A stretch of DNA of 64,000 nt from a candidate division WOR-3 bacterium (lineage in GTDB: Bacteria; Hydrothermota; Tepidihabitantia; SM23-42). How positions within the stretch are numbered: the first letter of the stretch is position 1; each line of letters starts with the position of its first letter. The translations under genes were made by a program, and so were the position numbers. This document shows, piece after piece, positions 5,701 to 25,491 of this stretch. The notes under the pieces are model-generated. The model did not search any database, was not told the DNA's origin, and saw only the letters and a program-made list of their open reading frames with translations. The DNA lies in the NCBI GenBank assembly GCA_029858255.1, contig JAOUFJ010000001.1, forward strand, positions 124,001 to 188,000. The letters are read 5' to 3'.

Positions 5701-5717
5701 TATATTCAAATTCCTTC

Positions 5718-7286
<1,569 letters not shown>

Positions 7287-7298
7287 CAAAGAGCAAAT

Positions 7299-7337: not shown

Positions 7338-7377
7338 ATTTAAGATCATTTGTTGAGTGGGCGAGAGGATTGTGCTA

Positions 7378-7405
7378 TTGACAATGATTCAATATTTAAT
7401 ATAAT
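7378..7405 (+). promoter_or_regulatory. rpsP operon promoter, probably leaderless
   Basis: TTGACA (7378-7383), 16-nt spacer, TATAAT (7400-7405). The rpsP ATG is at 7414, nine bases after the -10 box. No Shine-Dalgarno motif precedes it, so the mRNA should start at or within a base or two of the start codon. Confidence 0.75.
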
Positions 7406-7413
7406 GATAAGCT

Positions 7414-7880: not shown

Positions 7881-7960
7881 TGAATTCAGGACTCTCTTGC
7901 CTTTTTCTTCATCTATTTATTGCACTGGAAGTTTAGAAGTAAATAACAGTACATACCCCC

Positions 7961-8677: not shown

Positions 8678-9086
8678 ATTGCCTGATATTAAGCCGGGTG
8701 ATCTTGTTAAGGTTTATACGAAAATCATTGAAGGAGATAAAGAACGTCTGGCGCCATTTCAGGGTGTCGTCATTAAAATTAAGGGTAGTGATATCGCCAA
8801 GACCTTCACGGTTCGGAAGGTTTCTGCCGGTGTTGGGATAGAAAGAATCTTCCCGGTTCACTCGCCGATGATTGCCCGAGTTGAAATAAAGAAAAAGGGT
8901 AAGGTGCGAAGGGCCAAACTGACGTATCTACGGCAGCGTAAGGGGAAGAGGATGAAGATAAAAGAGGCGGCAGTTCAGATTGAAGCAAAGCCTGAAGAGG
9001 TGATTGAGGAAACATCACGTCCTTCCGAAGCTGAGGAAGCAGCCGGTGAAAGCGCTACCGGACCTGAAACTGTGGAAAAAGTATAG
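8670..9086 (+). CDS. rplS: 50S ribosomal protein L19
   Basis: A 138-residue L19. The core (~1-105) has [20 protein letters not shown] and [16 protein letters not shown]19 sits at the 30S/50S interface. The ATG at 8670 lies within the trmD end and has GGAGG 5-10 bases upstream, which decides the start. After the core comes a ~30-residue acidic, Glu/Ala-rich tail (from about [12 protein letters not shown]), longer than most L19 proteins. The DNA of this tail also carries the start of rnhB in another frame. Confidence 0.95.
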
Positions 9087-9630
9087 CCTTGTTGCCGGCG
9101 TAGATGAATCAGGGAGGGGTCCTCTCGCCGGTCCTGTAGTCGCAGCGGCCGTGATCTTGCCCAGAGATTACGTCCATCCTGAGATCGATGATTCAAAAAA
9201 ACTAACGCCGTCCAAACGCAGGGAACTTTACTCGACGATCACTGAGAGGGCGATCGCTTATTCATTTGGCATCGTCGATGCTGCTACGATCGACACCATC
9301 AATATCCTCGAAGCCACCAAAAAAGCCATGCGCAACGCGCTTGCTCAGTTGAATCCAATGCCGCAGTACGTTTTGATCGATGGTCTGGGTATCGGTGAAC
9401 TCAACTTCAAGTATGATGCAATAATAAAAGGCGATTCGCTGAGCGTTTCCATCGCCGCCGCGTCGATTCTGGCAAAAGTATATCGTGATGGGATAATGTG
9501 TGAATATCACGAATCATACCCGCAGTATCATTTTAACAAGCACAAAGGATACCCCACAAAACTGCATCGTGACTGCATTCAGAAGTATGGTTCATGTCCG
9601 ATTCATCGTAAATCTTTTCAATTGCTATGA
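9046..9630 (+). CDS. rnhB: Ribonuclease HII
   Basis: RNase HII removes ribonucleotides and RNA primers from RNA-DNA hybrids. The sequence has [16 protein letters not shown] (first catalytic Asp-Glu pair), [11 protein letters not shown], the catalytic Asp in [28 protein letters not shown] (third Asp region) and the C-terminal [12 protein letters not shown] choose the GTG at 9046 because GAGGAAG lies about 8 bases upstream and it gives a 194-residue protein of normal size. It overlaps rplS by 41 bases. A TTG at 9004 would add 14 residues. The stop overlaps the next ATG. Confidence 0.92.
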
Positions 9631-9986
9631 AACATAATACGACTGCACTCGGGATATTGGGAGAGAAACTTGCGCGTGAGCACTTAAGGAAGAAGCGCTA
9701 CAACATTGTTGATCACAATTTCCGCTGTCCTCAGGGCGAGATCGATTTGATCGTACGTAAAAACAAAGCATTTCGTTTCATCGAAGTCAAGTTCAGGCGT
9801 ACCATGGATTACGGGCTGCCGGAAGAATCAGTGGTAAGACGGCAGCAGCAGAGGATTAGAAAGGCGGCTATTGTCTGGCTTCGCAGACGCCATCTTCCGA
9901 TGAATAGCGAAATGCACTTTGACGTCCTTGCAATAAGCGAGCTGAGAGGCGAGCAAAAATATGAGTATATAGAAGATGCATTCTGA
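9627..9986 (+). CDS. yraN: YraN/UPF0102 nuclease-fold protein
   Basis: A 119-residue UPF0102 protein with the family pattern: LGILGEKLAREHLRKKRYNI, then FRCPQGEIDLIVRKN and FIEVKFRR. The E-I-D-L...F-I-E-V-K residues form an endonuclease-like metal site (restriction-endonuclease/Holliday-resolvase fold). Its biological role is not settled. Coupling to rnhB (ATGA overlap) is common across bacteria and fits a nucleic-acid housekeeping role. It ends the ribosomal cluster. Confidence 0.9.
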   Translation: MKHNTTALGILGEKLAREHLRKKRYNIVDHNFRCPQGEIDLIVRKNKAFRFIEVKFRRTMDYGLPEESVVRRQQQRIRKAAIVWLRRRHLPMNSEMHFDVLAISELRGEQKYEYIEDAF

Positions 9987-10235
9987 CTAAATCACAAATA
10001 AACTCTAAGCACGAAATACTAAATCCTAAACAAATTCAAATTTCCAAAATTCAAAACAGACAACCGTGAGCATAGTTATATGTTATTTGTTGTGGCTGCC
10101 AGTATTGTCGCAAGGTTTGGTCGTTGGTTACAGACCGTTCAAGCTACAACCAAGTACCATACGGGCTGCCATACCCAATAACCATGAACAAGGTTGTGGA
10201 TTTGATAATTGATACGTTTTCGAAGGATGGTTTCG
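9987..10235. repeat. Gene-free spacer of dispersed repeats left of the acyl-CoA dehydrogenase pair
   Basis: No gene seen. Three repeat blocks can be matched elsewhere: 10010-10066 (like 2782-2862); 10112-10195, CGCAAGGTTTGGT...TTACAGACCGTTCAA (like 13012-13094); and 10211-10235, GATACGTTTTCGAAGGA plus GGTTTCG (like 12930-12954). The last block reaches almost to the 3' end of the gene at 10239. Confidence 0.6.
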
Positions 10236-10238
10236 GCT

Positions 10239-11336
10239 TTAGATCGTGTTCTTCGCGATAATTTCTTTGTCCTCATCCGGCGTGCTACATATTACATTGA
10301 GCATTTGCGCATCGCGGAAATAGCGTTCGGCTGGATAATCTTTCATATAACCATAACCGCCATATACTTGTATCGCGTTCGTTGTTACGGCGGTCGCAGA
10401 CCGTCCTGCCAGGAGCTTGGCAATGGCCGCAGCAGTAGCATATTCTTCACCGCGGTCGACGCGCAGAGCTGCTTCGTACACGAGATGGCGTGCCGCTTCT
10501 ATACTTACCATCATGTCGGCGATTAGCTCACGAACCATGCCGAAGCTGACTATAGGCTGGCCGAATTGTACGCGTTCCTTTGCGTATTTTATCGCGGCCT
10601 CGGCAGCACCTTGTGCTATGCCAAGGGAGATGGCCGCCAGCAAGATGCGGGCATAGGAATTCATGTTGTCAATTATCATCTGTCCCTGGTTTTCTTCTCC
10701 AATGATGTTCGCTTGGAGAGGTTGTACTTTCTCGAATGAGTATTCGCCAATTCCCGCGGATCTTAACCCGACCGTTTTGCTCGTCTTGGTGAATTTGCGG
10801 CCGTGAGTGTCGGTATCAATAACATAGAGATTCAACCCATTCGGCCCGGTTAAGGGTACTGCCGCGACAATGGGACCGTTTGCTGCAGCATTGAGGACGA
10901 AGGGATTTTTTCCATCCAAACATGGTCCGTTCAATGATCCACCGTGTTCCAGCTCTGCTGTTTTTAGCAGTGCATAACCGCCGATAGTCTCTCCACTTGC
11001 AGCTTTTGGTAGATATCTCTTTTTCATTTCCTCACTGCCGAATTTCAGGATCGGGTAGGCGAAGAATGCATTGTGGACTGCGATGACAAATGCAGTTGAT
11101 GCACATACTTTGCTGATTTCTTCCAGCACTACAGTGAAGCCGATCGTGTCAAGAGCGGCTCCTCCATGGCTTTCGGGAATGATCGCACCGACAATGCCCA
11201 TTTCGGCAAGCCTCTTGATATTGTCTGTGGGCAAACTACACGATTTCTCGATCTCGTCGACCTTTTCAGCAAGTACCTGCTGGGCGAATTTCTTTAACTC
11301 GTTCTGCAATAAAGTGCATTCCTGGCTTAGCTTCAT
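10239..11336 (-). CDS. Acyl-CoA dehydrogenase-like protein without the usual catalytic signature
   Basis: A 365-residue protein with the acyl-CoA dehydrogenase layout: helical N-domain (~1-115), beta middle domain (~115-215) and C-terminal four-helix domain (~220-365, with RVQFGQPIVSFGMV and QVYGGYGYMKDYPAERYFRD). Two key motifs are lost. The FAD/substrate loop usually reading A-x-T-E-P-x-A-G-S-D is GYALLKTAELEHGGSL. The segment after the final RDAQ helix, normally I-Y-E-G-T-x-x-x-x-R with the base Glu, reads MLNVICSTPDEDKEI. It has a good ribosome binding site (AAAGGAG) and lies 72 nt downstream of a complete paralogue. A non-catalytic partner subunit of a hetero-oligomer is likely; a relict gene is the alternative. 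Confidence 0.82.
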   Translation of the reverse strand: MKLSQECTLLQNELKKFAQQVLAEKVDEIEKSCSLPTDNIKRLAEMGIVGAIIPESHGGAALDTIGFTVVLEEISKVCASTAFVIAVHNAFFAYPILKFGSEEMKKRYLPKAASGETIGGYALLKTAELEHGGSLNGPCLDGKNPFVLNAAANGPIVAAVPLTGPNGLNLYVIDTDTHGRKFTKTSKTVGLRSAGIGEYSFEKVQPLQANIIGEENQGQMIIDNMNSYARILLAAISLGIAQGAAEAAIKYAKERVQFGQPIVSFGMVRELIADMMVSIEAARHLVYEAALRVDRGEEYATAAAIAKLLAGRSATAVTTNAIQVYGGYGYMKDYPAERYFRDAQMLNVICSTPDEDKEIIAKNTI

Positions 11337-13115: not shown

Positions 13116-13143
13116 TTGACAACCTGGGTGATATGATTATCAT
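13116..13143 (+). promoter_or_regulatory. Promoter of the module 1 operon, probably leaderless
   Basis: TTGACA (13116-13121), 16-nt spacer, TATCAT (13138-13143). The first ATG of the operon is at 13149, where transcription should start. No Shine-Dalgarno lies before it, whereas the first genes of modules 2-4 have strong AGGAGG sites. Confidence 0.6.
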
Positions 13144-13148: not shown

Positions 13149-14228
13149 ATGCTTTTAATCTTATTGGTTCTCACGAACCAGGTTGAATTAAAAGCGTTCG
13201 ACACACCAAACGATGATGGTTCTAGTATTACGCTGAATTGGCAAGCAGATACTTTATTCAATAGTTATTTCATCTTCAAGTCCCTGAACCCCGATGGCGA
13301 TTTTGAAAAAGTCTGTGAGATTACTGACCGTACGACATACGTTGACACCAATGTAGCCGGCGGGCAGGAATACTATTACCAGATTGAAGCGTACGGCATG
13401 GACCTTACGGAATCATCGAGGGTCGTAGGGCCGGTTAAAGCAATTCCGCACATATTCAACACCGCTCGGATCAATATTGCGGTGTTTATTGTTATTCTGT
13501 TTTTTGCAGTGATATATTACATTACACGAGCACGCCGTGGCGAGAAGTTATTTATAAGGAAGATTCCCGGCATAGCCGCCATCGAAGAAGCGATCGGTCG
13601 CGCCACGGAAATGGGAAAACCTGTGCTCTATGTTCCGGGCATCATGGATATTGATGAACCGGAGACAATTGCGTCGATGAGCATTCTTGGCCGTGTGGCT
13701 GAAAAGACCGCCGAGTACGGTACGCCGCTCTATGTACCAACCAGCAAAGCGATGGTGATGAGCATGGCTCAGCAGGTGGTAAAGGAGGCGGCGATACGTG
13801 CCGGCAGACCGGATTGGTTCAATATTGATAATGTCCGTTATTTGACCGATGACCAGTTTGGCTATGTATCTGCCGTGGATGGTATAATGGTAAGAGAAAA
13901 ACCGGCGACGAATTTTTATCTCGGGAAATTCTATGCGGAATCACTCATTCTTGCCGAAACAGGATTTTCGACTGGAGCGATACAGATCGCGGGCACCGCT
14001 TTGCCTGATCAGCTGCCTTTTTTCGTCGCGGCATGTGACTACACGCTCATTGGAGAAGAATTGTATGCGGCGAGTGCCTATCTGTCGCAGGAACCGGTCC
14101 AGTTGGGATCTCTCAAAGGGCAGGATATTGGCAAACTGATCTTCATCATCGTGATCGTATTAGGTGTTCTTGATCGACTTGTAGGGCTTGATATTTTATA
14201 CAATCTATTCAGCACGGTGCAACAATGA
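13149..14228 (+). CDS. Module 1 protein A: FN3 domain plus membrane-anchored core
   Basis: A 359-residue protein, first gene of a nine-gene operon. In order: a short hydrophobic leader (MLLILLVLTNQVELKA), one fibronectin-III-like domain outside the membrane (~20-100, ending EYYYQIEAYGMDL), a membrane helix (~113-135), a basic stop-transfer patch (RARRGEKLFIRK), a cytosolic core (~140-330) and a C-terminal hydrophobic helix. The core opens with EEAIGRATEMGKPVLYVPGI and ends with QIAGTALPDQLPFFVAACDY and [14 protein letters not shown], the most conserved part among the copies. I recall similar proteins being labelled DUF6754 but cannot verify that. The function is unknown. The stop overlaps gene B (ATGA). 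Confidence 0.85.
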   Translation: MLLILLVLTNQVELKAFDTPNDDGSSITLNWQADTLFNSYFIFKSLNPDGDFEKVCEITDRTTYVDTNVAGGQEYYYQIEAYGMDLTESSRVVGPVKAIPHIFNTARINIAVFIVILFFAVIYYITRARRGEKLFIRKIPGIAAIEEAIGRATEMGKPVLYVPGIMDIDEPETIASMSILGRVAEKTAEYGTPLYVPTSKAMVMSMAQQVVKEAAIRAGRPDWFNIDNVRYLTDDQFGYVSAVDGIMVREKPATNFYLGKFYAESLILAETGFSTGAIQIAGTALPDQLPFFVAACDYTLIGEELYAASAYLSQEPVQLGSLKGQDIGKLIFIIVIVLGVLDRLVGLDILYNLFSTVQQ

Positions 14229-14848
14229 AGCAGACGATACCACTGATCATTGTCTTTGGATTCGGGTTTTTTGTTATCATAGCGTTTTTCATACCGCTGA
14301 GTGCATTTCAGGACGCTTCCCAGACCTTTGAAACGTGGTATACCGGCGTAATTGCATTCTTTGTTTTCATCGGTATTTTCAACATCGTAAAAGTGAATGC
14401 GAGCAAGATACAGCGAAGATTGAGCGACTGGCAATACAGCATCATACTACTCATTTTCCTGGCGTTGATGATGGCCGCGGGTTTCATCGGTGGGCCTAAC
14501 GGGGGAGTCTTCAACTACCTATTCGAGCATATGCAGATTCCGCTGGGGGCAACAATGTTTTCTCTTCTTGCTTTTTTTGTCGCCTCGGCAGCTTTCCGCG
14601 CATTCCGGGCACGGACACCTGAGGCTACATTGCTGTTGATAGCGGCAGTGATCGTGATGATTGGTCGCGTACCTATCGGTTACTATATCTGGCGAGGATT
14701 TCCGGATGTGGTTGAATGGATGATGAATGTACCGAATACCGCGGCGAAACGAGGAATACTCTTCGGCGCGGACCTGGGATTGATATCGATGGCGCTGAGA
14801 GTATTGCTTGGTATCGAACGCAGTTACATGGGTGGGGGTCGTGAGTAA
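14225..14848 (+). CDS. Module 1 protein B: six-segment membrane protein
   Basis: A 207-residue integral membrane protein with about six hydrophobic segments (near 5-23, 40-57, 70-90, 103-125, 138-158, 180-200). A basic loop, KVNASKIQRRLSDWQYS, follows the second. Features shared by all B copies are IPLGATMFSLLAFFVASAAF, the FRAFRAR motif, the helix ending ALRVLLGIERSYMGGG, and a short charged tail. It resembles no characterised transporter that I can name. Start coupling to gene A suggests the two are made in fixed ratio. Confidence 0.82.
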   Translation: MKQTIPLIIVFGFGFFVIIAFFIPLSAFQDASQTFETWYTGVIAFFVFIGIFNIVKVNASKIQRRLSDWQYSIILLIFLALMMAAGFIGGPNGGVFNYLFEHMQIPLGATMFSLLAFFVASAAFRAFRARTPEATLLLIAAVIVMIGRVPIGYYIWRGFPDVVEWMMNVPNTAAKRGILFGADLGLISMALRVLLGIERSYMGGGRE

Positions 14849-14883
14849 AGATAGTCAAGGGTATCGAAACCTCAGGATACAAT

Positions 14884-15705
14884 ATGAAATTTCTTGAGCG
14901 ATTAGAGAATCTGGACCGGCGTATTCTCTTCTTGTTAGTCGGGTTGGCCGTGATCATACCATTGATCTTCCCGCTTGGATTGCCGGTTGATATTACGAGA
15001 CCGGTGAAAAGTGTTTTTGACCGGGTCGAAGAATTGCCGGAAGGAGCGATCGTCGTCGTGTCTTGCGATTATGATCCGGGCAGCGAGGCCGAGTTAACGC
15101 CTGCCACCGCGGCGTTTGTAGAGCATTGTTTTCGGCGAAATTTGCGCGTCTATATGATGGGTTTGTGGCCAGCCGGTCCCGAACTCGGTAATCTGTCCCT
15201 GGAGAGTATCGCACCCCGGTACGGAAAGGAATACGGGGTGGACTATATCAATATCGGCTATCGTCCGGGGGGTCCGGTGATGTTGGTAAGCCTGGGCCGA
15301 AACGTTGCAGATTTGGTTAGAGCGGACTACGCAGGTGTTCCGATCGATTCCTTCCCGCTTGGGCGTGCGCTTAAGTCTGCACGCGATATCGATCTCGTCA
15401 TGACCCTTTCGGCGGGCGATCCGGGTGTGCTACACTGGATCATCTACTTCAGTGCACGTTACGGTACGCCGATTGCGACGGCAACGACTGCGATCATGGC
15501 GCCACAGCAGTATCCCTATCTCAGTTCTGGCCAACTAGTTGGGCTGTTGGGTGGATTGAAGGGTGCTGCCGAGTATGAAACTCTCATCGAGATGAAAGCT
15601 CGAGCGGTAGCAGGAATGGATTCGCAATCGATTGTGCACCTCCTTTTGGTTGTTTTCATCGTGATCGGTAATGTTATCTTGTTGTACCAAAAGAGAAGGA
15701 TATAA
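14884..15705 (+). CDS. Module 1 protein C: bitopic protein with a large soluble domain
   Basis: A 273-residue protein with one N-terminal membrane helix (~14-34, after the ENLDRRILFLL start shared by all copies), a soluble alpha/beta-looking domain (~50-235) and a C-terminal helix (~245-266, HLLLVVFIVIGNVILL). Conserved points are VVSCDYDPGSEAELTP, the YGVDYINIGY stretch, GTPIATATTAIMAPQQYPY and GGLKGAAEYETLIE. With both ends in the membrane, the soluble domain probably faces the periplasm. No catalytic motif is recognised. A 35-nt gap separates it from B, and its stop overlaps the D start by one base. Confidence 0.8.
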   Translation: MKFLERLENLDRRILFLLVGLAVIIPLIFPLGLPVDITRPVKSVFDRVEELPEGAIVVVSCDYDPGSEAELTPATAAFVEHCFRRNLRVYMMGLWPAGPELGNLSLESIAPRYGKEYGVDYINIGYRPGGPVMLVSLGRNVADLVRADYAGVPIDSFPLGRALKSARDIDLVMTLSAGDPGVLHWIIYFSARYGTPIATATTAIMAPQQYPYLSSGQLVGLLGGLKGAAEYETLIEMKARAVAGMDSQSIVHLLLVVFIVIGNVILLYQKRRI

Positions 15706-16322
15706 TGTCGACCGAGATCGGTGTCTGGATTGCCGCGTTGCTTACGCTGGCGATATATTCATTTCTCTACAAAGACAATCCTTTTTACAAGGTTGCTGAG
15801 AATATCTTTGTCGGTGTTTCGGCTGGATATTGGGCGGTTGTGCTGTGGTTCAACTACGCCTGGCCCAATCTTTTCGAACCATTGATCATGCGGGGCAATT
15901 TCATTTATCTCATACCGATCATTGTTGGCCTCATGATGTTTGCGCCGCTGATTCCTAAAGTAAGCTGGCTTATTCGCATTCCATTGACCTTCACCATGGG
16001 CGTGGCCATGGCACTAGTCATATTGCAGCGTATCCAGGGCGAAATCTTCCCTCAACTGCAGGCTACTTTTCTGCCGCTCATTGGAGTGAGCCCCATGCAG
16101 ACAATTTCAAACCTTTTAATAATATTTGGTGTAATATCCACCCTCATTTATTTCTATTTTTCGAAGGCGCACAAAGGTGTTTTGGGTGTGTTTGCGAAGT
16201 TGGGCATATGGTTCATGATGGTTGCATTCGGTGCGTCGTTTGGCTACACGGTAATGGCCCGTATTTCATTGCTGATTGGTCGTGTCTATTTCTTACTCCA
16301 TAACTGGCTGCAGCTGATTTAG
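15705..16322 (+). CDS. Module 1 protein D: polytopic membrane protein
   Basis: A 205-residue membrane protein with about six hydrophobic segments. Motifs common to all D copies are FLYKDNPFYKVAENIFVGV near the N-terminus, PKVSWLIRIPL in the middle, YFYFSKAHKGVLGV, and the C-terminal FGYTVMARISLLIGR. The invariant charged pairs (KDNPFYK, S-K-x-H-K-G) flank membrane segments and may be contact points with the other subunits. The gene overlaps C by one base (TAATG) and is followed after two bases by the DUF4388-like gene. The function is unknown. Confidence 0.82.
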   Translation: MSTEIGVWIAALLTLAIYSFLYKDNPFYKVAENIFVGVSAGYWAVVLWFNYAWPNLFEPLIMRGNFIYLIPIIVGLMMFAPLIPKVSWLIRIPLTFTMGVAMALVILQRIQGEIFPQLQATFLPLIGVSPMQTISNLLIIFGVISTLIYFYFSKAHKGVLGVFAKLGIWFMMVAFGASFGYTVMARISLLIGRVYFLLHNWLQLI

Positions 16323-16324: not shown

Positions 16325-17167
16325 ATGACCTTTGAAATCAGTCTCAAAGAGTTCAAACTAACCGACGTTCTTCAATTTCTTTTTTTCACACAGAAAACCG
16401 GAGTGGTGCACGTTAGCGGTGAAACCTCTGGCGAAATATACTTTGCCAACGGGATCGTCGTGCATGCTGCGGAGGAAGCATGCGAGGGTATTGACGCTTT
16501 ATTCAACATGTCCATGGTAACATCAGGGACTGCGACCTTCGAACCTCATGTGAGTGCTCCAAAAAAGACTGTTTCTGAGGATGCAGGGAAATTAGTTGAT
16601 ACGGTGGAAAAAAGACGTGTGGAGCTCCAGACCATAAAGAAGAGCATGCCACCTCTTGAATCTGTCTGGGCGAAGGCCGCGAAGGAACCGGAATCAGCTG
16701 TTGCCTTAAGGAGGACCGACTGGCAGGTTCTGGCCAAGATCGATGGCAAGAGGAAGCTGTCTGGAGTTATTGCAGAATCGAAACTGGGTGGGTATGAGGC
16801 AATGAAGACTGTAGTATGGCTCAAAGATCAGGGGTTGATCTACGAACCCGAGCAGGCAGCGCGCACGATGTCCGTGATGACGAGCTATCTGAATTCCTTT
16901 ATGGCTGATTTCAGCAGGAACGGCTTGATCTGGTTCAAGCGCTGGAGCGCAAACAAGGAAGATAACAAGCGCATAGCGCGCGCAGTGAGCATTGATGAAG
17001 AAACAATGGAAACGAAGGTTGTGGCCGAATTGAATGCCAGCGACATTGACTATTTCATCAAGAGCTTTGAGGAGATTGTCAGTTCGGAAGGTCCGAAGAT
17101 ATATGGTAAGTTGCTTTTCAGGAAGAAGTTCGATGACTTCAAAACGAAGCTCGAGCGCGAGACATAA
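16325..17167 (+). CDS. DUF4388/PATAN-like cytosolic protein
   Basis: A 280-residue soluble protein. The first ~75 residues match the DUF4388 (PATAN) pattern: SLKEFKLTDVLQFLFFTQKT, then GVVHVSGETSGEIYFANGIV and a V-H-A...G-x-x-A-L-F motif. In other bacteria this domain is an adaptor found with response regulators and Roadblock/GTPase systems. A middle part (~120-185) resembles a small winged-helix-like module (WQVLAKIDGKRKLSGVIAES). The C-terminal part (~195-280) is helical and charged. There is no membrane segment, so it probably acts at the cytosolic face of the module 1 complex. Only module 1 has this gene. Confidence 0.75.
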   Translation: MTFEISLKEFKLTDVLQFLFFTQKTGVVHVSGETSGEIYFANGIVVHAAEEACEGIDALFNMSMVTSGTATFEPHVSAPKKTVSEDAGKLVDTVEKRRVELQTIKKSMPPLESVWAKAAKEPESAVALRRTDWQVLAKIDGKRKLSGVIAESKLGGYEAMKTVVWLKDQGLIYEPEQAARTMSVMTSYLNSFMADFSRNGLIWFKRWSANKEDNKRIARAVSIDEETMETKVVAELNASDIDYFIKSFEEIVSSEGPKIYGKLLFRKKFDDFKTKLERET

Positions 17168-17170
17168 CTT

Positions 17171-17809
17171 ATGGATGTTCTTGATAATATGGCCGGCGTA
17201 ATTGGTTATGTTGCAGTGCGAGCCGATGATGGCAAGATCGAAGAGGTCAAGGGATCATCGGCTAATGCTCTATCTGATCTGACAGCGTATTTTTCCTCGG
17301 CCGGCGAGGCGATCAGGAATAACTTCGGGATGGGTGCACTTGATTATATATCGCTTGTGTATGGAAACAACCGCCTCGTGATAATACCCTACAAGGATAA
17401 ATATCTTGGGATCGAGACCGAGCGCGAACATGATCCACAAATACTCGTGAAACAATTGAGCGGGCTTGTGTTCATCAAAAAACCCGCCGTTGAAGTGCCC
17501 AGGGCACTCGATTCTAAGATGCGTCAGATAAATCTACTGATAAAAGAGTTCGGCGGAACTTCTGATAGTAATCACTGGATTGAGTTGTTGAACCAGAGCC
17601 TGGGAGTATTGGGAAGAGATATTGCGCCGTTCATGGGAGTCGTGGAGGGCAGCCTTGTTTTTAAAGAAAACCCGCCGCCGGAAAATGAAGATGATTTCTC
17701 TCAGGCATTGCGTTCGGTTGTTGATTTTCTGGTCAAAAAGGCAGTCGAGGAAATGGGTTCATCACATGCGCGCGCCAGGGTGCAGACCGTGATCGAGCGG
17801 ATGAGGTGA
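17171..17809 (+). CDS. Probable Roadblock/LC7-like protein with C-terminal helical domain
   Basis: A 212-residue soluble protein. Residues ~8-90 have the alternating strand/helix pattern of Roadblock/LC7 (MglB-type) domains: GVIGYVAVRADDGKIEEV, a helix, then ISLVYGNNRLVIIPYKDKYL and HDPQILVKQLSGLVF. The remaining ~110 residues are helical. Roadblock proteins are usually dimeric regulators or scaffolds for small Ras-like GTPases; no such GTPase is encoded here. The assignment is from pattern only and needs a profile search. It is three bases from the previous gene, and its stop (TGA 17807-17809) provides part of the next gene's ribosome binding site. Confidence 0.55.
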   Translation: MDVLDNMAGVIGYVAVRADDGKIEEVKGSSANALSDLTAYFSSAGEAIRNNFGMGALDYISLVYGNNRLVIIPYKDKYLGIETEREHDPQILVKQLSGLVFIKKPAVEVPRALDSKMRQINLLIKEFGGTSDSNHWIELLNQSLGVLGRDIAPFMGVVEGSLVFKENPPPENEDDFSQALRSVVDFLVKKAVEEMGSSHARARVQTVIERMR

Positions 17810-17811
17810 CG

Positions 17812-18393
17812 ATGGACAAGAATACATTGAACAACGCAGTGTCTCAAGGCTTGCCAATGCCTTTTGCGGCTTCGATTTCCGGTGAGACATTCGTTGCTGA
17901 TGCGGCTGTTGTCTATCAGGAACAGATTGCACAGATGGCGATGGTGATTTTCGAAACGATGAATGCACTCGGTGAAGTGAAGATCGAGAAAATCGAGATA
18001 AAAGGGGACAAGAAGGGTATCGTCATGAAGCTCGAAGAAGATGGTATGTTGGGAACGATCATCGAACCTGCTGAAGGTATCACACGTCCAGAAATCTGGA
18101 AACTCTTGCAGGAAATAAGCGCGAAGTCGGTAATGACGCCTGCCGAGAGGCGAGCCGCGCTCGTCGATCCAGGTGTACTCGAGAAAATCAAGGGTATTCT
18201 TGGAGAATATGTCGGTGATTTCACAGAAAGGATCTTTCAGAACCAGTTGAAGAATCAGAACATAAAAATAGACGAATTGCATGCCGAAGATGTTCGCCGT
18301 GTGATCCTTGCTTTGAGCAAGGCAACGAGCATGATTGTTGGCCGTTCAAAGGGTCGTGAGTTATCAAAACGGCTAACTGAGTTGGTGAAGTGA
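17812..18393 (+). CDS. Second soluble regulator-like protein of the module 1 operon
   Basis: A 193-residue soluble protein. Its first ~95 residues (YQEQIAQMAMVIFETMNAL, then VKIEKIEIKGDKKGIVMKLE and DGMLGTIIEP) could be another Roadblock-like domain, less clear than in the previous gene. The C-terminal ~90 residues are helical, with a basic end (SKGRELSKRLTELVK). The start is ATG 17812, since GAGGTGA ends four bases before it; an in-frame GTG at 17806 is less likely. I see no enzyme motif. A cytosolic partner of the DUF4388-like and Roadblock-like proteins is the simplest reading. Confidence 0.5.
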   Translation: MDKNTLNNAVSQGLPMPFAASISGETFVADAAVVYQEQIAQMAMVIFETMNALGEVKIEKIEIKGDKKGIVMKLEEDGMLGTIIEPAEGITRPEIWKLLQEISAKSVMTPAERRAALVDPGVLEKIKGILGEYVGDFTERIFQNQLKNQNIKIDELHAEDVRRVILALSKATSMIVGRSKGRELSKRLTELVK

Positions 18394-18434
18394 TTGGAGT
18401 TTGGTATGGTAATACTTCAATTAAAGGAGGTTAG

Positions 18435-18803
18435 ATGTCGACACTCCTCGTGACCGCGCCGTTTGGCATAGAACCAGCACGCTATCAAATGCTTGCGGTG
18501 ATCCCGAATTACCTGCTCATTTTGGGTGCGGTTGTCCTTTGGTTCGCTTTTGTGTTGCTGGGTATAATCGCGCGCCGCTACGAAATTGTGCTCGGAGAAA
18601 GAACCGACTGGCAGTTCATGATCGGCGCGCCGACAGGGATACTCGCTTTTGCGATCCTCCAGTTTATCTACTGCGGAATCGGCGGGAACATTATGTTGCC
18701 CAAAGGTGGGATTAACTACGGTGCATATCTGTTATTTTTGGTTTCCGGCAGTCTGTCATTATTCGCCAATTACAGATTTTACTGCGTGACGAAAGGGAGG
18801 TAG
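18435..18803 (+). CDS. Small membrane protein, three or four segments
   Basis: A 122-residue hydrophobic protein with segments near 22-45, 58-78 and 88-112. Between the first two is a charged loop (IARRYEIVLGERTDWQFMIG) whose D-W-Q resembles the R-x-x-W-Q-(Y/F)-S loop of the B proteins. It has a strong AAAGGAGG ribosome binding site. It is five bases before the next small membrane gene. I do not recognise the family; it is probably an accessory membrane subunit of the module 1 operon. Confidence 0.65.
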   Translation: MSTLLVTAPFGIEPARYQMLAVIPNYLLILGAVVLWFAFVLLGIIARRYEIVLGERTDWQFMIGAPTGILAFAILQFIYCGIGGNIMLPKGGINYGAYLLFLVSGSLSLFANYRFYCVTKGR

Positions 18804-18807
18804 GGTC

Positions 18808-19158
18808 ATGAAAGCTGATCTGCCGGCGGAGTTGATCTTCATATGCGCGATCATTCTGACAGTCGTAGCCCTGTTTTTGTATGGAATGATTATCAGACGC
18901 CTTCTGACGCTTATCAGGGCCAAGTATATCTGGATATTTCCGGTGCTCGGGGGTGTCTTGCTCCTGGTTCTTGCCGCGGTCCATATCTATCGGGTGCTTT
19001 TCTATTTTCCAATGCTGGGGACTGCTGGTCCAGGGGATTTGTTCGACCTCATAATAGGTTCGTTGAGTCTTGCCCGTGTCGAAAGTTACTTGCTTCTGGG
19101 CGCTGGCATTCTTGCGCTCATAGGAGGTGTCTCATATTACCTTACGAGTTCACGATGA
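18808..19158 (+). CDS. Small three-segment membrane protein
   Basis: A 116-residue protein with three hydrophobic segments (near 9-28, 41-62, 92-112). An arginine-rich cytosolic loop (RRLLTLIRAKY) follows the first. GGGAGGTAGGG precedes the ATG. It is the last gene of the co-directional run that starts at 13149. No homologue is recognised and no copy accompanies modules 2-4. Confidence 0.65.
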   Translation: MKADLPAELIFICAIILTVVALFLYGMIIRRLLTLIRAKYIWIFPVLGGVLLLVLAAVHIYRVLFYFPMLGTAGPGDLFDLIIGSLSLARVESYLLLGAGILALIGGVSYYLTSSR

Positions 19159-19194: not shown

Positions 19195-19223
19195 TTGACA
19201 ATCGATTCAATATTTAATATAAT
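19195..19223 (+). promoter_or_regulatory. Promoter of the exbB-exbD-exbD-tonB operon
   Basis: TTGACA (19195-19200), 17-nt spacer, TATAAT (19218-19223). The leader to the exbB ATG (19294) is about 64 nt and ends in AAAGGAGGAAAAAC. The TTCAATATTTAATATAAT part is nearly the same as at the rpsP promoter (7388-7405). Confidence 0.75.
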
Positions 19224-19293
19224 TTGCAGGTTTGACGTTGGTGATTCAACCGAGTACGGTATATCACTAACCCCAAAAGAAAGGAGGAAAAAC

Positions 19294-19932
19294 ATGATAA
19301 GGGAGTTTCAATTGGGATCAGAAGGTGGTGGTGGATTTGTGATGTGGTTCTTAGTGATCTGTGCTGTTCTGGGAGTTGCGATTATAATAGAGCGGCTGTA
19401 TAGTCTCTTCATCAAAGCCCGTCTGAACCCAGGAAGTTTCTTGGAGAAGTTGACCTCGACGGTCGATTCACAAGGTATTGAAGCGGGCAAGGCATTATGC
19501 GATCAAACCGCATCTCCGGTTGCCAAGATCCTTAAATCGATCCTGGAGAAGGCGAACCTGGGCAAAGATGCGATGGAAGAAATGGTAACGCGCAGTGCCG
19601 CGATCGAATTGTCATTCCTGGACCGGGGCATGGCACTGCTCGCGGGTCTGACAACCGTTTCGCCATTCTTGGGATTCTTAGGAACGGTGATGGGTATGAT
19701 CACGGCTTTTGCCGCGATTGCATTGGCTGGTGAAGTCGAGCCGACAGTTGTTGCCAGTGGTATTTCAACCGCACTTATTACTACAAAGTGGGGTTTGATC
19801 ATTGCGACACCGCTTGCGATAATTCATATTTTATTCTCCGGTAAGGTCGACGGATACGCCCGTGACATGGAGGAAGCTGCAAGTGGATTGATCGATTATA
19901 TTATCGAACAGTATCAACCGAGGAAAAAATAA
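19294..19932 (+). CDS. exbB: ExbB/TolQ/MotA-family proton channel protein
   Basis: A 212-residue inner-membrane protein with three membrane segments: one near 17-37 (FVMWFLVICAVLGVAIIIER) and two in the C-terminal half (LLAGLTTVSPFLGFLGTVMG and ISTALITTKWGLIIATPLAI). These are the MotA/TolQ/ExbB signature. The family forms a pentamer around ExbD that uses the proton gradient to drive TonB. I use ATG 19294 because of the AAAGGAGG before it. The stop and the next ATG share one base. Confidence 0.92.
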   Translation: MIREFQLGSEGGGGFVMWFLVICAVLGVAIIIERLYSLFIKARLNPGSFLEKLTSTVDSQGIEAGKALCDQTASPVAKILKSILEKANLGKDAMEEMVTRSAAIELSFLDRGMALLAGLTTVSPFLGFLGTVMGMITAFAAIALAGEVEPTVVASGISTALITTKWGLIIATPLAIIHILFSGKVDGYARDMEEAASGLIDYIIEQYQPRKK

Positions 19933-20402
19933 TGATACTACGGGAAAAGAAGGTTGCACGTGCCGGGATCCCGACCGCATCGATGGGTGATGTAGCCTTC
20001 CTGATATTGATATTCTTCTTGACCTCGACGGTTTTCACCAAAGATAAGGGTTTGAAAATGCTGCTGCCCGAGAGAACGGAGGAGCAGGAACAAGTCAAGG
20101 TGAAACCCGAGAACATTGTTACGGTAGCGATCAACCCTGCTGGCGAAGTAAAAATAAAAACTGTTGATCTGGATAGAATACTGGTACTTGAGGAATACGG
20201 TGAGATCAAGAGCATCGTCGAAGAACGACTGCTGGCAAGGGATACTTTGCTGGTGGTTTCGTTGCGTCCCAGCAAGGATGCCCCTTACGATAACATGATA
20301 CAGGCGCTGGACCAGATCAAACTCGCCAAGACAACTTCGTCCGATGGCCGGGAATTGAGGGTGACTAAGATAAGTCTAATCCCAACAAGTGAGGAACAAT
20401 GA
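19932..20402 (+). CDS. exbD: ExbD/TolR-family protein, first copy
   Basis: A 156-residue protein with one N-terminal membrane helix and a periplasmic domain. The essential proton-carrying Asp is visible near residue 20 in TASMGDVAFLILIFFLTST. The periplasmic part includes NIVTVAINPAGEVKI. ExbD proteins sit inside the ExbB pentamer and couple proton flow to TonB. It overlaps the second exbD by four bases. Two tandem ExbD copies suggest a hetero-dimer in the motor. Confidence 0.9.
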   Translation: MILREKKVARAGIPTASMGDVAFLILIFFLTSTVFTKDKGLKMLLPERTEEQEQVKVKPENIVTVAINPAGEVKIKTVDLDRILVLEEYGEIKSIVEERLLARDTLLVVSLRPSKDAPYDNMIQALDQIKLAKTTSSDGRELRVTKISLIPTSEEQ

Positions 20403-20815
20403 GAAAGAGTATCATTCGAAGACATCGGGAACGAGGTGAGATCCCCACCGCATCCACGGCTGATATTGCGTTTCTTCTTATCTTGTTTTTCATGGTGACC
20501 ACAGTCTTTCGCGCGACTAAGCTGAACCTTAGAATAACGATACCCGAAGCCAGATCAACCGAGCGGATCTTGATGCGCAGGAATGTTTCATACATCTGGG
20601 TTGATGTTGACCGGAAAATATATCTGGATGATAATGTGATAGCGGCCGAGATGATTGCCGGGAAAATGGCACAGAAGGTCTGGGATAATCCTGAGCTCAT
20701 TACTGTTATGAAAGTTGACAAGACGGCGACTTACGGCGTAGTGGATAATATCCTCGATCAGCTGAAAGAGGCAAAGGCATTCAGGATTACGTTTGCCACC
20801 GAACAGAGGAGCTGA
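20399..20815 (+). CDS. exbD: ExbD/TolR-family protein, second copy
   Basis: A 138-residue ExbD paralogue, shorter than its neighbour, with the helix TADIAFLLILFFMVTTVF (essential Asp near 22). A short periplasmic domain ends LDQLKEAKAFRITFATEQR, preceded by the usual TYGVVDNILDQ helix. The divergence between the two copies (different periplasmic lengths) argues for distinct positions in one complex over simple dosage. It lies two bases before tonB. Confidence 0.9.
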   Translation: MRKSIIRRHRERGEIPTASTADIAFLLILFFMVTTVFRATKLNLRITIPEARSTERILMRRNVSYIWVDVDRKIYLDDNVIAAEMIAGKMAQKVWDNPELITVMKVDKTATYGVVDNILDQLKEAKAFRITFATEQRS

Positions 20816-20817: not shown

Positions 20818-21432
20818 ATGCGCGATCATAAAATTATGTATGGTGTGTACCTGAGAGCGGGTCTTCTCTCCAGTCTGATCCTGTTCATACTGGCTTTTCT
20901 CTTCGTTCCGTATGCTGAACCTGAGGCCTACAAACTGAAGCGGGAGATCGTGACGATGGTTGAGGAGATCTCAGCTCAGATGGAAAAGTACGAGGAGCCG
21001 CCTCCACTCGAACGCCCGAAGGTTGCAGTAGAGGCCGAGAGCGAGGTGGCAGAAGAAGCAGTGGAGACGATCGCCGATACCGAATTTGAGGAAGACCTTA
21101 TCAGGACAATGCCGACAGGCCCGGAAATCGAGATTGTCCCCTATTATAAGGTTGAGGTGAAGCCGAAGCCCATATTCCAGCAGAAACCACGTTATCCTGA
21201 CCTGGCGAGACGGGCCGGAATAGAGGGGCAGGCGGTTGTGAAGGCGTTAGTGGATATTGACGGTAGCGTCATGGATGTCCAGATACTGAAGTCAAGTGGC
21301 AACCAGATGCTGGATGAGGCAGCACTTGCCGCGGCGCGCAGGTGGAAATTCAGCCCCGCCAAACAACGCGACAAGTACGTGCGGGTTTACGTGTCAATAC
21401 CGATAAACTTCCGCCTGGTAGAAGGAGGGTAG
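20818..21432 (+). CDS. tonB: TonB energy transducer
   Basis: A 204-residue protein with a short cytosolic start, one membrane helix (~13-31, LLSSLILFILAFLFVPYA), a Pro/Glu-rich periplasmic linker (~45-100) and a TonB C-terminal domain (~120-204). The last contains PRYPDLARRAGIEGQAVVKA, VDIDGSVMDVQILKSSGNQM and DEAALAAARRWKFSPAKQ, the family signature. TonB reaches across the periplasm to the TonB box of outer-membrane receptors; one receptor is encoded at 22702. It is the last gene of its operon. Confidence 0.93.
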   Translation: MRDHKIMYGVYLRAGLLSSLILFILAFLFVPYAEPEAYKLKREIVTMVEEISAQMEKYEEPPPLERPKVAVEAESEVAEEAVETIADTEFEEDLIRTMPTGPEIEIVPYYKVEVKPKPIFQQKPRYPDLARRAGIEGQAVVKALVDIDGSVMDVQILKSSGNQMLDEAALAAARRWKFSPAKQRDKYVRVYVSIPINFRLVEGG

Positions 21433-21448: not shown

Positions 21449-21476
21449 TTGACAATTATCTGATACTTGCTATAAT
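21449..21476 (+). promoter_or_regulatory. Promoter of the receptor/secreted-protein operon
   Basis: TTGACA (21449-21454), 16-nt spacer, TATAAT (21471-21476), both consensus. The leader of about 130 nt before the lipoprotein gene is purine-rich and holds a possible 17-codon leader peptide (21532-21585). Confidence 0.75.
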
Positions 21477-21614: not shown

Positions 21615-22691
21615 ATGATGAAGAAGCGTCTTCTAGGCCTCTTAGTGGTTGCAGTAATGTGCCTGCTGACGTGTGGTAACGAGCCACCGGAAGATTTCTA
21701 CGAAGGCACTCCTGAAGACGACGCGCAGATAGACGCTATCCTCGAAAGCGACTCATTCAGCATACTACTCAACACAACCGATGGTTTCGTTAATACATAC
21801 ATCCCTTTGAATATACCAAACGTTGCTTTCGTAGACCAGGATCGTATTTTCCGAGCCGATTCACCGATGGTCAAAGACCACATCGATAGCTGCAAACTTG
21901 CCTTTATCGACATGAATCGTTTGTACGATCGATGGTATACCAAGGACACTGCTTGCACGGTCTATCTGATAGACACTTTTATGGTTGAATCCTGGGGTCA
22001 TGTCGATTTACGCCTCGTCGGACATTATGACAGCCTTTATATTGGTTCGACCGGTGATACGAACTGGGTGTTGAGGAATGTCGACACGATCATTACGGAT
22101 ACCCTATATGACATGGAGGAGATCCATGGTGATGGCCGGCGGTTGATCTTCCTGGAACCTCTGAGGTCAACAACCCCTGATATCGACCCCGAAACTGGTG
22201 ATACAACCTATGCCATAATCGAACCGTTTGAATGGCAGCTCAAGCGTATTTCTTATGGTAGCTACTACTATCCGACGCGCGGGACAGATGCGCCGGCGGT
22301 CAACCGTGTTCTCATTGAGGTACCACCGTCCGTCGATACGATACTGGCTACGAATACTGATACGCTTTACACCGGCCATGTCATGAATCGTTTTAAGCAC
22401 ATCGATTCGTTGCTTAATTACAGCGGTGTAGATTCGGTGCTGGTCACGATCGAAGTCGATGATCCTGAAGTTGCAGGTGTTTGCGCGTACTACGCGGTAT
22501 GCGCCGGTGATACGCCGACTCGAGTACAATTAGGCGCGGTTACTGCTGGCGCTCGCGGTTACTTGCATCTTAGCGGTCAAGATATCGTGAACCTCTACTT
22601 TGAGGTCGTATTCAGAGATTCTTACTACTACGTTAACCCTAATCAAGGATATTTTGCCACAGTCTGGCTTGTGCCAGTCATAAGAAATTAG
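21615..22691 (+). CDS. Secreted lipoprotein of unknown function, linked to the TonB receptor
   Basis: A 358-residue protein with a lipoprotein signal: basic start, hydrophobic stretch, then LLTCGNEPPEDF with the lipobox Cys near residue 21. The mature part is acidic and rich in Asp/Thr/Tyr, with many short strands and no recognised domain. It ends VWLVPVIRN. It sits eight to ten bases before the TonB-dependent receptor, so a surface or periplasmic partner of that receptor is the best guess (by analogy with SusD-like partners, though no SusD sequence pattern is seen). Two adjacent ATGs (21615, 21618) follow AAAGGAGG. Confidence 0.7.
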   Translation: MMKKRLLGLLVVAVMCLLTCGNEPPEDFYEGTPEDDAQIDAILESDSFSILLNTTDGFVNTYIPLNIPNVAFVDQDRIFRADSPMVKDHIDSCKLAFIDMNRLYDRWYTKDTACTVYLIDTFMVESWGHVDLRLVGHYDSLYIGSTGDTNWVLRNVDTIITDTLYDMEEIHGDGRRLIFLEPLRSTTPDIDPETGDTTYAIIEPFEWQLKRISYGSYYYPTRGTDAPAVNRVLIEVPPSVDTILATNTDTLYTGHVMNRFKHIDSLLNYSGVDSVLVTIEVDDPEVAGVCAYYAVCAGDTPTRVQLGAVTAGARGYLHLSGQDIVNLYFEVVFRDSYYYVNPNQGYFATVWLVPVIRN

Positions 22692-22701
22692 GGGGTGCTT
22701 G

Positions 22702-25491
22702 ATGAAAAAAATCTTACTCGCACTTATTATCGGGGTATTCCTTTTCGGTGCTGAATACGGCAGGATAAATGGTCGCGTTCTGGATGCTGAGACAGGAGAA
22801 CCCCTGGTCGGAGCTGATGTTGTCATTGAGGGCACCGAGTTAGGTGCGGCGACCGATGCAGGAGGAGAGTTCGTCATACTCTATGTCCCTGCAGGAACTT
22901 ACCGGGTCACATCGTCCTATATTAGTTACGACCCGTTCACCTTCACGAGTGTCGTCGTGAATGCCGACCAGACAACATTGCTCAATTTCCGCTTGCCTCC
23001 GACTGTGATCGAAGTCAAAGGTGTAACTGCCGTTGCCGAGCGCGAGGCAATCGTTAGAGACGCTGTTCACACGCGCCGTGCGGTTACATCTCAGGAAATG
23101 AGCCGGTTGCCCGTTACGACGATCAACCAGGTCATTGCTCTGCAAGCCGGCGTCGTCGATAGCAAGCGCGGAACCCATCTGCGCGGCGGACGCGACGGTG
23201 AGGTTACTTACTTCGTTGACGGTATTGTTACCAAGGTACCCAACACTAACTGGCAATCAGCGGTTATCAATCAGTCTGCCGTGGAGGAAGTCTCCGTGGT
23301 GAGTGGCGGATTCGACGCTGAGTACGGCGATGCGCTTTCGGGCGTTGTTAATATTGTCACGCGCGAAGGCGGTTCGAAGATATCGGGTGCTTTGAATTAC
23401 CTTAGTGATGAGATGTTCGGCAGCTGGCAAGACCCGATCAATTACGGGTACAGCCAATACGATTTCTCGTTTGGCGGTCCGTTACCGGCATTTAACAGAC
23501 TTCGCTATTTCTTCTCTGGTGAGTATATGCAGACCGAATCATACCATCAAGAAGGGTTGTTCAAACTCGATGCTCCGAGGCAGGATTACCGGGCGCAAGG
23601 TCGTTTGACGTACAATTTAGCCAATGCAAAAGGCAAATTGTCGTTCACCGGCTTCAATGAACGCAGGCAGTGGGTGATCTGGAGTAACGTTACCGGCACC
23701 GGCCAGTACGATCTCAAATACTTTGACAACCGGCCGATGAGTCGTATCAAGAACTGGATCCTTTCCTCGACGTTCAACTATATGGTCACGGCCCAGACCC
23801 TGGCATCGCTGAAAGTCGGTATGACTCACTTTGACCGCATGTACGGCAATCGTGATTATATCTGGGAAGAAGACAGCGGAAGACAATGGTATGATGATTA
23901 CCGGTTCAAGGCGGAACGACTTGTTGATATGCTGCTTCATCCGGAAGATTATATTGATCCGGTGACCGGCGAACCAGTCACAATTCGTCAGGTGCTCATC
24001 GACAGTGTCATGGAGTACCACGAAGAGTACTACAATCGTGATGTCGAGGCACTGCGCCATAATCCTTACGGTGTTGAGGGTTTGTTCTACACGACCGGTG
24101 ACTACCGTGTGTGGAGAGTATGGAACAACAACGACATCCAGGGAAGGTTCGACGTCACCCACTCGATTGGCAGGGTGCACGAGTTCAAAACCGGCGTAGA
24201 TTATATCCGTTATGAGATGCAATACTACGATAACAATCTGCCGTGGGTTGCCAATCCCTTCTGGGATTACTATGACCGGACACCGTGGAAATTCGCCGCT
24301 TATGTACAGGACAAGATGGACTTTGAGGGACTTGTTGCGCGTGTTGGGTTGCGTTTTGATTATTTCGATCCCAAAGCGAGCACGTATGAGGCGCCCGAGG
24401 ATTACCTGAACGACGAGCTGATCCGCTCTGAAGCTGAGTACAAGGTCTCGCCACGTCTCGGTTTCTCGCTACCGGTGACCGACCGTATGAAACTTCGTTT
24501 CAACTACGGACAGTATTTCCAGTTACCAGCGCTCGACAATCTATACGGATCGACTGATACGTCGGTGGTGAGGTTGCTCATTTCGCGCGGCAACGCGGTT
24601 GTCGGCAACATCTTGATCAAACCCGAGAAGACCGTGCTGTATGAATTGGGTATTGAGAACCAGTTCTCGGAAGAGGTTATTTTCGGTTTCACTGCGTACT
24701 TCAAGGATATCTATGACCTGAACCAGGTCCGTGAAGTCATTGCGGTGCCCTATTCCTATTACCAGTACATGAATGTCGACTACGGTAATGTTAAGGGCTT
24801 CGAGGTCAACTTGCAGAAACGCATGTCGAACATGTGGGCATTCGGCTTGAGCTACACCATGCAGTTTGCCAAAGGCACGGCTGCTGACGCATATGAATGG
24901 TACGAAGACCACTACTACTACAATATAGCGGTACCGGTTATTGATTACTGGCTTGACTTTGACGAACGACACACATTACACGCAAACTGGGATGTTGATC
25001 TACCGACGGATTTCTTCTTAATACCTCTCCAGAACTTCAACAGTTCGATCGTCTTCTCCTATCATTCAGGCCATCCGTATACCCCTCGTGATCTACGTGG
25101 AAACAAGCTTGGTGACGAAAATTCGGCAAGGATACCTGGGTACTTGAATGTCGACTGGAATCTCAGCCGCAGCTTCAAAATAGGTCCGGCGAATCTGGTG
25201 CTCAAGGGATTGATCTACAATCTGCTCAACACCGAGCAGATAATCGAAGTCCACGAAACCACGGGTGATCCTGTCTTGCATGGTGACCCGGAACCGTCAC
25301 TCGATCAGTTCGGGTTCACGGCAATCTCGAGCACGCGCTACTCACCGCAATCCGATTTCAACCACGACGGTTTGGTCGATCCTCGCGAAGCGAAACAATC
25401 ATACATCGATGCTCAGAACGATTACTACTATGATGCAAGGAATTTCATGCCTGGTTTCCGTGCGCGCGTTGGCGTCGGTCTACAGTTCTAA
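22702..25491 (+). CDS. TonB-dependent outer-membrane receptor with carboxypeptidase-like N-domain
   Basis: A 929-residue receptor. In order: a signal peptide (KKILLALIIGVFLFGA), a carboxypeptidase-regulatory-like beta domain (~22-105, INGRVLDAETGEPLVGADVV), a plug (~130-225, ending VVSGGFDAEYGDALSGVVNI) and a long Tyr/Asp-rich beta-barrel ending in FRARVGVGLQF with terminal Phe. Near the C-terminus an EF-hand-like loop, DFNHDGLVDPREA, may bind calcium. Such receptors import large substrates using TonB energy; the substrate is not evident. The ATG at 22702 is preferred to a TTG one codon earlier; GGGGGTG lies upstream. It is co-directional with the tonB operon. Confidence 0.92.
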   Translation: MKKILLALIIGVFLFGAEYGRINGRVLDAETGEPLVGADVVIEGTELGAATDAGGEFVILYVPAGTYRVTSSYISYDPFTFTSVVVNADQTTLLNFRLPPTVIEVKGVTAVAEREAIVRDAVHTRRAVTSQEMSRLPVTTINQVIALQAGVVDSKRGTHLRGGRDGEVTYFVDGIVTKVPNTNWQSAVINQSAVEEVSVVSGGFDAEYGDALSGVVNIVTREGGSKISGALNYLSDEMFGSWQDPINYGYSQYDFSFGGPLPAFNRLRYFFSGEYMQTESYHQEGLFKLDAPRQDYRAQGRLTYNLANAKGKLSFTGFNERRQWVIWSNVTGTGQYDLKYFDNRPMSRIKNWILSSTFNYMVTAQTLASLKVGMTHFDRMYGNRDYIWEEDSGRQWYDDYRFKAERLVDMLLHPEDYIDPVTGEPVTIRQVLIDSVMEYHEEYYNRDVEALRHNPYGVEGLFYTTGDYRVWRVWNNNDIQGRFDVTHSIGRVHEFKTGVDYIRYEMQYYDNNLPWVANPFWDYYDRTPWKFAAYVQDKMDFEGLVARVGLRFDYFDPKASTYEAPEDYLNDELIRSEAEYKVSPRLGFSLPVTDRMKLRFNYGQYFQLPALDNLYGSTDTSVVRLLISRGNAVVGNILIKPEKTVLYELGIENQFSEEVIFGFTAYFKDIYDLNQVREVIAVPYSYYQYMNVDYGNVKGFEVNLQKRMSNMWAFGLSYTMQFAKGTAADAYEWYEDHYYYNIAVPVIDYWLDFDERHTLHANWDVDLPTDFFLIPLQNFNSSIVFSYHSGHPYTPRDLRGNKLGDENSARIPGYLNVDWNLSRSFKIGPANLVLKGLIYNLLNTEQIIEVHETTGDPVLHGDPEPSLDQFGFTAISSTRYSPQSDFNHDGLVDPREAKQSYIDAQNDYYYDARNFMPGFRARVGVGLQF

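Follow-up and report, generated by a model that had tools for sequence, protein, structure and literature searches.

The DNA described here is a 64,000-nucleotide stretch (the window) of contig JAOUFJ010000001.1, positions 124,001 to 188,000 of the forward strand, from a candidate division WOR-3 bacterium. The nearest relatives among the genomes compared are metagenome-assembled genomes (MAGs) named candidate division WOR-3 (Stahlbacteria). Module 1 of the window, a DUF6754 module with the genes A-B-C-D, is followed by a five-gene set that we name P5, P6, P7, M8, and M9. A first-pass annotation of the sequence had placed five closely spaced genes behind module 1 D, and this stands, positions included, with all five on the same strand. 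The gaps from D to P5 and then from gene to gene through M9 are 2, 3, −4, 41, and 4 bases; the third becomes +2 if P7 starts at the ATG at 17812 instead of the GTG at 17806, the two starts being equally good. The row had been described only as far as M9. It runs on, over a gap of 132 bases and past a promoter-like site, into ExbB, ExbD, ExbD, and TonB genes, whose MotA_ExbB, ExbD (twice), and TonB_C domains all score far above the Pfam cut-offs. The identical gene order is met again in dozens of genomes across the phylum and so is not due to chance. No genes of the set type adjoin the window's three further complete DUF6754 modules or the one cut by the window end. In the following, f denotes a family, G a relative genome, L a locus, and C a contig of the bacterium's own genome.

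Table 1. Genes and promoter-like sites from module 1 to the TonB-dependent receptor (positions in the window).
Feature	Position	Strand	Basis or remark
Promoter-like site TTGACA-16-TATCAT before module 1	13116..13143	+	11/12 consensus bases; alike, in the same place, in most f1/f2 relatives
Module 1 genes A-B-C-D: DUF6754 protein and three membrane proteins	13149..16322	+	A: PF20539, E 4e-119
P5: DUF4388 (PATAN-like), conserved helical/winged-helix-like middle part, C-terminal domain common with P6	16325..17167	+	
P6: Roadblock-fold N-domain (~1-104, modeled), C-terminal domain common with P5	17171..17809	+	
P7: Roadblock-fold N-domain (~2-111, modeled), nearest MglB, helical C-terminal part	17806..18393	+	
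M8: small inner-membrane protein (predicted)	18435..18803	+	Hydropathy; directly 5′ of M9 in nearly all loci seen
M9: small inner-membrane protein, three segments (predicted)	18808..19158	+	Hydropathy
Consensus promoter TTGACA-17-TATAAT between M9 and ExbB	19195..19223	+	12/12 bases
ExbB/TolQ-type proton channel subunit	19291..19932	+	PF01618, E 7e-25
ExbD/TolR-type subunit 1	19932..20402	+	PF02472, E 7e-17
ExbD/TolR-type subunit 2	20399..20815	+	PF02472, E 5e-21
TonB protein	20818..21432	+	PF03544, E 8e-26; TIGR01352, E 3e-24
Consensus promoter before lipoprotein and receptor genes	21449..21476	+	12/12 bases
Protein with lipoprotein-like signal (LLTCG), partner gene of receptor	21615..22691	+	Sequence reading; no Pfam family
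TonB-dependent outer-membrane receptor with CarboxypepD_reg domain	22699..25491	+	PF00593, E 2e-29; PF13620, E 1e-18; PF07715

Residues 6–93 of P5 are a DUF4388 domain (PF14332, E 3.8e-13, 50 bits against a gathering cut-off of 25). P6 and P7, as single proteins or as families, match nothing in Pfam or NCBIfam, and profiles of P5, P6, and P7 gave nothing usable when compared by sequence with solved structures. No PHROG match was found for P6, P7, M8, or M9. AlphaFold2 models built from 22–23 relatives (pLDDT 80.5 for P6 and 83.8 for P7) give the N-domains the element orders E E H E E E H in P6 and H E E H E E E H in P7, which is the β-β-α-β-β-β-α order of Roadblock/LC7 proteins, with the extra N-terminal helix of MglB in the second case. 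The best Foldseek match of P6 is the Ragulator structure 5y3a_G (E 7.9e-6) and that of P7 is MglB, 6izw_B (E 7.6e-5). VIA-align pairs P6 with p14 (1vet_B, Z 9.9, rmsd 3.1, 99 residues aligned) and P7 with MglB (6hjm_K, Z 13.0, rmsd 2.5, 108 aligned). Solved Roadblock proteins fill the top rows of both searches, and profilin-like folds come next at lower Z, as expected in this fold class; since these also match, the Roadblock fold by itself is no proof of GTPase binding. On the models, then, the N-domains of P6 and P7 are Roadblock-like in fold, outside the Pfam Robl_LC7 family. The first-pass annotation had foreseen a DUF4388/PATAN-like product at 16325 and two proteins with Roadblock/LC7-like N-domains, and both folds are found, the former by Pfam and the latter in the models.

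P5 and P6 have a C-terminal domain of about 100 residues in common (hhalign probability 97.8, E 1.3e-12), and the N-domains of P6 and P7 align with each other (81, 1.2e-5). The C-terminal part of P7 was also considered as kin of the P5/P6 C-domain, to which hhalign does not clearly relate it. A related arrangement occurs in family f4 (L072:9071-12480), where a tight row encodes a protein with DUF4388 and a weak Robl_LC7 match, after it another protein with a weak Robl_LC7 match, and also three products without assignment. Residues 4–100 of P6 match by sequence the Robl_LC7 part of the f4 DUF4388 protein (E 6e-4). With the f4 row and the set of the window, the combination of DUF4388 and two Roadblock domains is thus seen to recur. 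A broad P5 alignment held no block conserved enough for a collection scan; with patterns from a narrower alignment, all genomes found were WOR-3. Because those patterns came from a single class, the result is hardly informative on other phyla.

By hydropathy, three hydrophobic segments are seen in M9. M8 has two strong ones, and its third, around residues 93–112, is below the threshold used. A first iterated hidden Markov model search mixed M8, M9, and gene B, and stricter models were then used. With hhalign, M8 and M9 match each other weakly (64%); kinship with the module proteins is not supported (M8 with B, 9%; M9 with D, <1%). M9 also has a weak match to DUF6529 (E 0.002), below the cut-off.

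The set is inherited as a block. Among 100 relatives, P5 is present in 47, as a full-length protein at E <1e-70 in 46 and, in G085, as a P5 cut by the contig end (L062). Of these 47, 45 also have M9, which all 53 genomes without P5 lack. Among the P5 genomes, M9 is missing from G006, where the contig breaks off within the row, and from G072, whose P6 and P7 look decayed. In family f22, M8-M9 stand alone, far from P5–P7. In f23, they directly precede ExbB-ExbD-ExbD-TonB on a different contig from P5–P7. The two halves co-occur although apart in these families, and linkage therefore does not account for the co-occurrence. An rpoB tree of 60 genomes from this sample has five changes of P5. Four independent pairs lie on well-supported branches, and M9 follows P5 in 3.7 of them on average and never goes the opposite way, a number of events too small for a sign test on the P5/M9 pairs to reach significance. 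That P5–P7 and M8-M9 form one co-inherited unit is well supported.

Three loci deserve separate mention. In G083 (f22), M8-M9 occur by themselves at L211:6186-6944, with neither Ton genes nor P5–P7 adjoining. In G072 (f17; L115:8378-9900), P5 is followed by an 87-residue Roadblock-like fragment, an apparently decayed stretch, and then ExbB-ExbD-ExbD-TonB; M9 is missing, and we read this as loss of the set in progress. In G003 (L039, L219), the row stops inside M9 at an N run, and an M9–TonB remainder lies 0.5 Mb off, also beside N runs. The assembly of this "complete" MAG may be at fault here; as the broken copy (L039) borders an N run, the break is given no weight.

The neighborhood of the set was compared over the ten families in which it was found (f1, f2, f3, f12, f15, f17, f18, f22, f23, and f24). 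Ton genes adjoin it in eight of them, all except f22 and f23, and in f15 a TonB-dependent receptor sits within the row. A DUF6754 module lies beside it in five (f1, f2, f3, f24, and f18), while f12, f15, f17, f22, and f23 have the set without an adjoining module; in f22 and f23, P5–P7 adjoin neither module nor Ton genes. The more constant neighbor of the set is thus the ExbB-ExbD-ExbD-TonB cluster, not the DUF6754 module. DUF6754 occurs in 96 of the 100 genomes and TonB in all 100, and since both are near-universal, neither needs the set.

These counts bear on whether the set controls DUF6754 module 1, with P5–P7 acting on the membrane proteins A–D and the Ton genes as mere neighbors. In f1, f2, f3, and f24, D and P5 overlap or have 2 bases between them, and only one gene, lipoate-ligase-like, comes between them in f18, an arrangement that favors such control. 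Against it stand the five families lacking an adjoining module, four genomes that have the set and no detected DUF6754 gene, and 53 genomes that have DUF6754 and no set.

The histories of the two blocks also conflict. Within the window's genus, the genes from P5 to TonB are 61–99% identical, but A–D of G001, G004, and G006 are only 43–58% identical to those of the window. Genomes of f2, another family, have A–D genes 66–80% identical to the window's and P5–P7 only 34–58% identical. The P5–M9 tree unites the window's genus in one clade (100/100), and the A–D tree disagrees; a topology that keeps the genus together there is worse by 851 log units (AU p 1e-9). The P5–M9 tree requires the A–D block type to change at least four times. 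Within one genus, A–D were swapped as a whole between two versions (L040, L041, L104, L042), with the break exactly at the D/P5 border. The A–D block is therefore exchangeable and was swapped between species while the set stayed. The adjacency of D and P5 outlived these swaps, a point on the side of control of module 1. So is the DUF6754 tree, for which no root was inferred, where all P5-linked A genes fall on one side and modules 2–4 of the window on another. Module 1 is an old DUF6754 lineage of its own. It had been proposed as the founding copy, a status that the tree does not grant it, as the P5-linked and module 2–4 lineages are both old and neither is visibly derived from the other.

Promoter-like sites, scored as matches to the 12 consensus bases of the −35 and −10 boxes, add to the picture as follows. 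The −10 box of the site before A ends 5 bases ahead of the start codon in the window and 5–6 bases ahead in most f1/f2 relatives, which suggests, from the spacing, that the module 1 transcript would be leaderless and that WOR-3 bacteria have leaderless transcripts. Before P5, no promoter-like site above background was found in the window or in relatives with a module upstream; in f12 and f22, which have no module upstream, a 10–11/12 site stands 6 bases before P5. Given the absence of a site before P5, the set is probably transcribed from the module 1 promoter. At 28 of the 31 loci compared in relatives, the site between M9 and ExbB matches 11–12 of 12 bases, a score reached by 1.4% of random windows of 190 bases. 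In the window's lineage, A through M9 would thus probably be one transcript and ExbB–TonB another. The promoter pattern is a further argument for control of module 1 by the set. Weighing it with the adjacency against the missing modules and the conflicting histories, we find that control doubtful. Of the earlier proposal that the set is joined to module 1, what remains is the probable joint transcription in the window's lineage; as a statement that the set belongs to module 1, it is not supported, given the five families with no adjoining module and the different history of A–D. Consensus promoters with the −10 box 5–6 bases from the start codon were also seen upstream of P5 in L053-L059 and L060.

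We tentatively propose that P5, P6, P7, M8, and M9 work together as one unit whose role is to control or assemble, from the cytosol, a dedicated Ton energizer. P5 and P6 have the common C-domain, P6 and P7 have Roadblock domains, which usually pair, and we infer from this that P5, P6, and P7 would form a soluble cytosolic complex. M8-M9 may anchor that complex in the inner membrane, beside the ExbB-ExbD-ExbD-TonB complex. So placed, it could switch, position, or assemble the ExbB-ExbD-TonB energizer, which would power the receptor encoded at 22699. In the window's lineage, module 1 and the controller would be made together from one promoter and ExbB–TonB from their own.

Any input to such a complex would most likely come from one of two MglA-like GTPases, because Roadblock proteins are the usual GTPase-activating proteins (GAPs) or scaffolds of such GTPases; the state of the GTPase would set when or where the Ton complex works. 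The first-pass annotation had correctly found no GTPase in the window and had suggested a genome search for an MglA-like one near other module copies. Outside the window, the genome has two, at C38:3402-3980, adjoining a Roadblock gene, and at C2:164797-165360, neither seen near the set, which is on C1. They were found via the adjoining Roadblock gene and by protein search, a search with the Pfam family Roc having given only matches below the cut-off. Of the 47 P5 genomes, 46 encode MglA, and the one that does not is 76% complete; the 53 genomes lacking P5 include 17 with MglA. By family, MglA occurs in 10 of 10 P5 families versus 6 of 15 others (Fisher p 0.003). This distribution is consistent with a link to the set and is no proof of one. 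P6 and P7 are at most candidate GAPs of MglB type, having the modeled fold and a genome that also encodes MglA.

Several observations weigh against our proposal. Pfam Robl_LC7 gave no match above its cut-off among 23 P6 and 22 P7 members. By place, no MglA gene was seen beside the set in any P5 locus. The rpoB tree shows no more than about two losses of MglA, each in a clade lacking P5; with so few losses and four independent pairs, the MglA–P5 association is not counted as significant. In f22, neither half of the set is by Ton genes. TonB being universal among the genomes, the Ton system works elsewhere without the set. The promoter between M9 and ExbB makes the Ton genes a neighboring unit and not part of the same transcript.

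Some of this would fit a GTPase-independent scaffold, in which the Roadblock/DUF4388 proteins only keep envelope complexes in position, or a neighborhood that means nothing beyond the P5–M9 co-inheritance. Roadblock folds also act as non-catalytic scaffolds, as in the Ragulator-type matches of P6; MglA occurs without the set in 17 genomes; and in f23 (L068, L070, ~4000-11300) P5–P7 are in one tight row, the DUF4388–Roadblock genes overlapping end to start with ruvB and a gene for a methyl-accepting chemotaxis protein. The Ton neighborhood, however, persists on both sides of the rpoB tree, and we hold this explanation to be improbable.

Comparison with known systems places the proposed Ton controller as follows. 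As in the MglA/MglB pair of Myxococcus and Thermus, an MglB-like N-domain (P7 is structurally nearest MglB) and MglA-like GTPases are present in one genome. Unlike MglB, P6 and P7 have extra C-terminal domains and do not adjoin MglA, and the MglA gene on C38 has its own adjoining Roadblock gene, unrelated by place to the set. The Ragulator/Roadblock heteromers offer another likeness, in that p14 is the best match of the P6 N-domain and two different Roadblock proteins stand side by side, which suggests that P6 and P7 form a heteromer. Here, however, there is neither lysosome nor Rag GTPase, and the anchor would be M8-M9 instead of the lipidated p18. P5 has the N-terminal Pfam domain of the cyanobacterial DUF4388/PATAN regulators PatA, PixG, and PixE, but it lacks a receiver domain and has the C-domain common with P6. 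In the genes it holds and in their order, ExbB-ExbD-ExbD-TonB followed by a gene for a TonB-dependent receptor, the cluster agrees with an ExbB-ExbD-TonB energizer; the difference is that the five-gene set precedes it.

A likeness to the AglRQS gliding motor of Myxococcus, controlled by MglA/MglB, also has to be considered. Roadblock genes next to one gene for ExbB and two for ExbD, in a genome with MglA, recall its ExbB/ExbD-type proton motor under Roadblock/GTPase control, and ExbB-ExbD-ExbD with Roadblock proteins and MglA might accordingly drive surface transport or gliding. Yet a TonB gene with a true TonB C-domain ends the cluster here, and TonB-dependent receptors lie downstream of it or inside it, completing a Ton cluster; Glt-type genes were not searched for. 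The one WOR-3 strain in culture showed no motility (PMC12285271). We consider an Agl-like motor very improbable.

To our knowledge, accounts of Ton systems name proton flow through ExbB-ExbD as the driving force and mention no control protein dedicated to them in the cytosol, and control of the Ton motor from inside the cell is not known to occur in described Ton systems. Our literature search found no paper joining Roadblock, ExbB, and GTPase. The set, inherited as a block across the phylum and a companion of ExbB-ExbD-TonB, is a concrete candidate for such control. In its fullest form, the proposal is that a Ton proton motor is switched or positioned from the cytosol by a Roadblock–DUF4388 complex that takes its signal from an MglA-type GTPase, M8-M9 being the link across the membrane and the DUF6754 module an exchangeable partner on the same transcript; put so specifically, we judge it unlikely. 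Precedents exist for the single steps of the Ton control that we tentatively propose. Response regulators with a PATAN domain are thought to connect signals with the type IV pilus, itself an envelope machine (PMC7690835). In Myxococcus, a gliding motor driven by protons is bound directly by MglA (PMC9120999), and heteromeric GAPs or guanine nucleotide exchange factors are often made up of Roadblock proteins (PMC9481161). If the proposed Ton controller is real, Roadblock/GTPase signaling would be tied to nutrient uptake through the outer membrane rather than to motility. The set would also give a first handle on the functions of DUF4388, M8, M9, and DUF6754, and the distribution described above corrects the idea that it belongs to one DUF6754 copy.

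Two further observations concern related genes elsewhere. The bacterium's own genome has two more Roadblock genes in tandem at C14:52388-52962 (L002), one of them behind TPR repeats, with no GTPase adjoining. In f15 (L120, L121), tandem DUF6754 modules lie near another ExbB-ExbD pair, and the DUF6754 module may be tied to Ton-type motors even without the P5 set.

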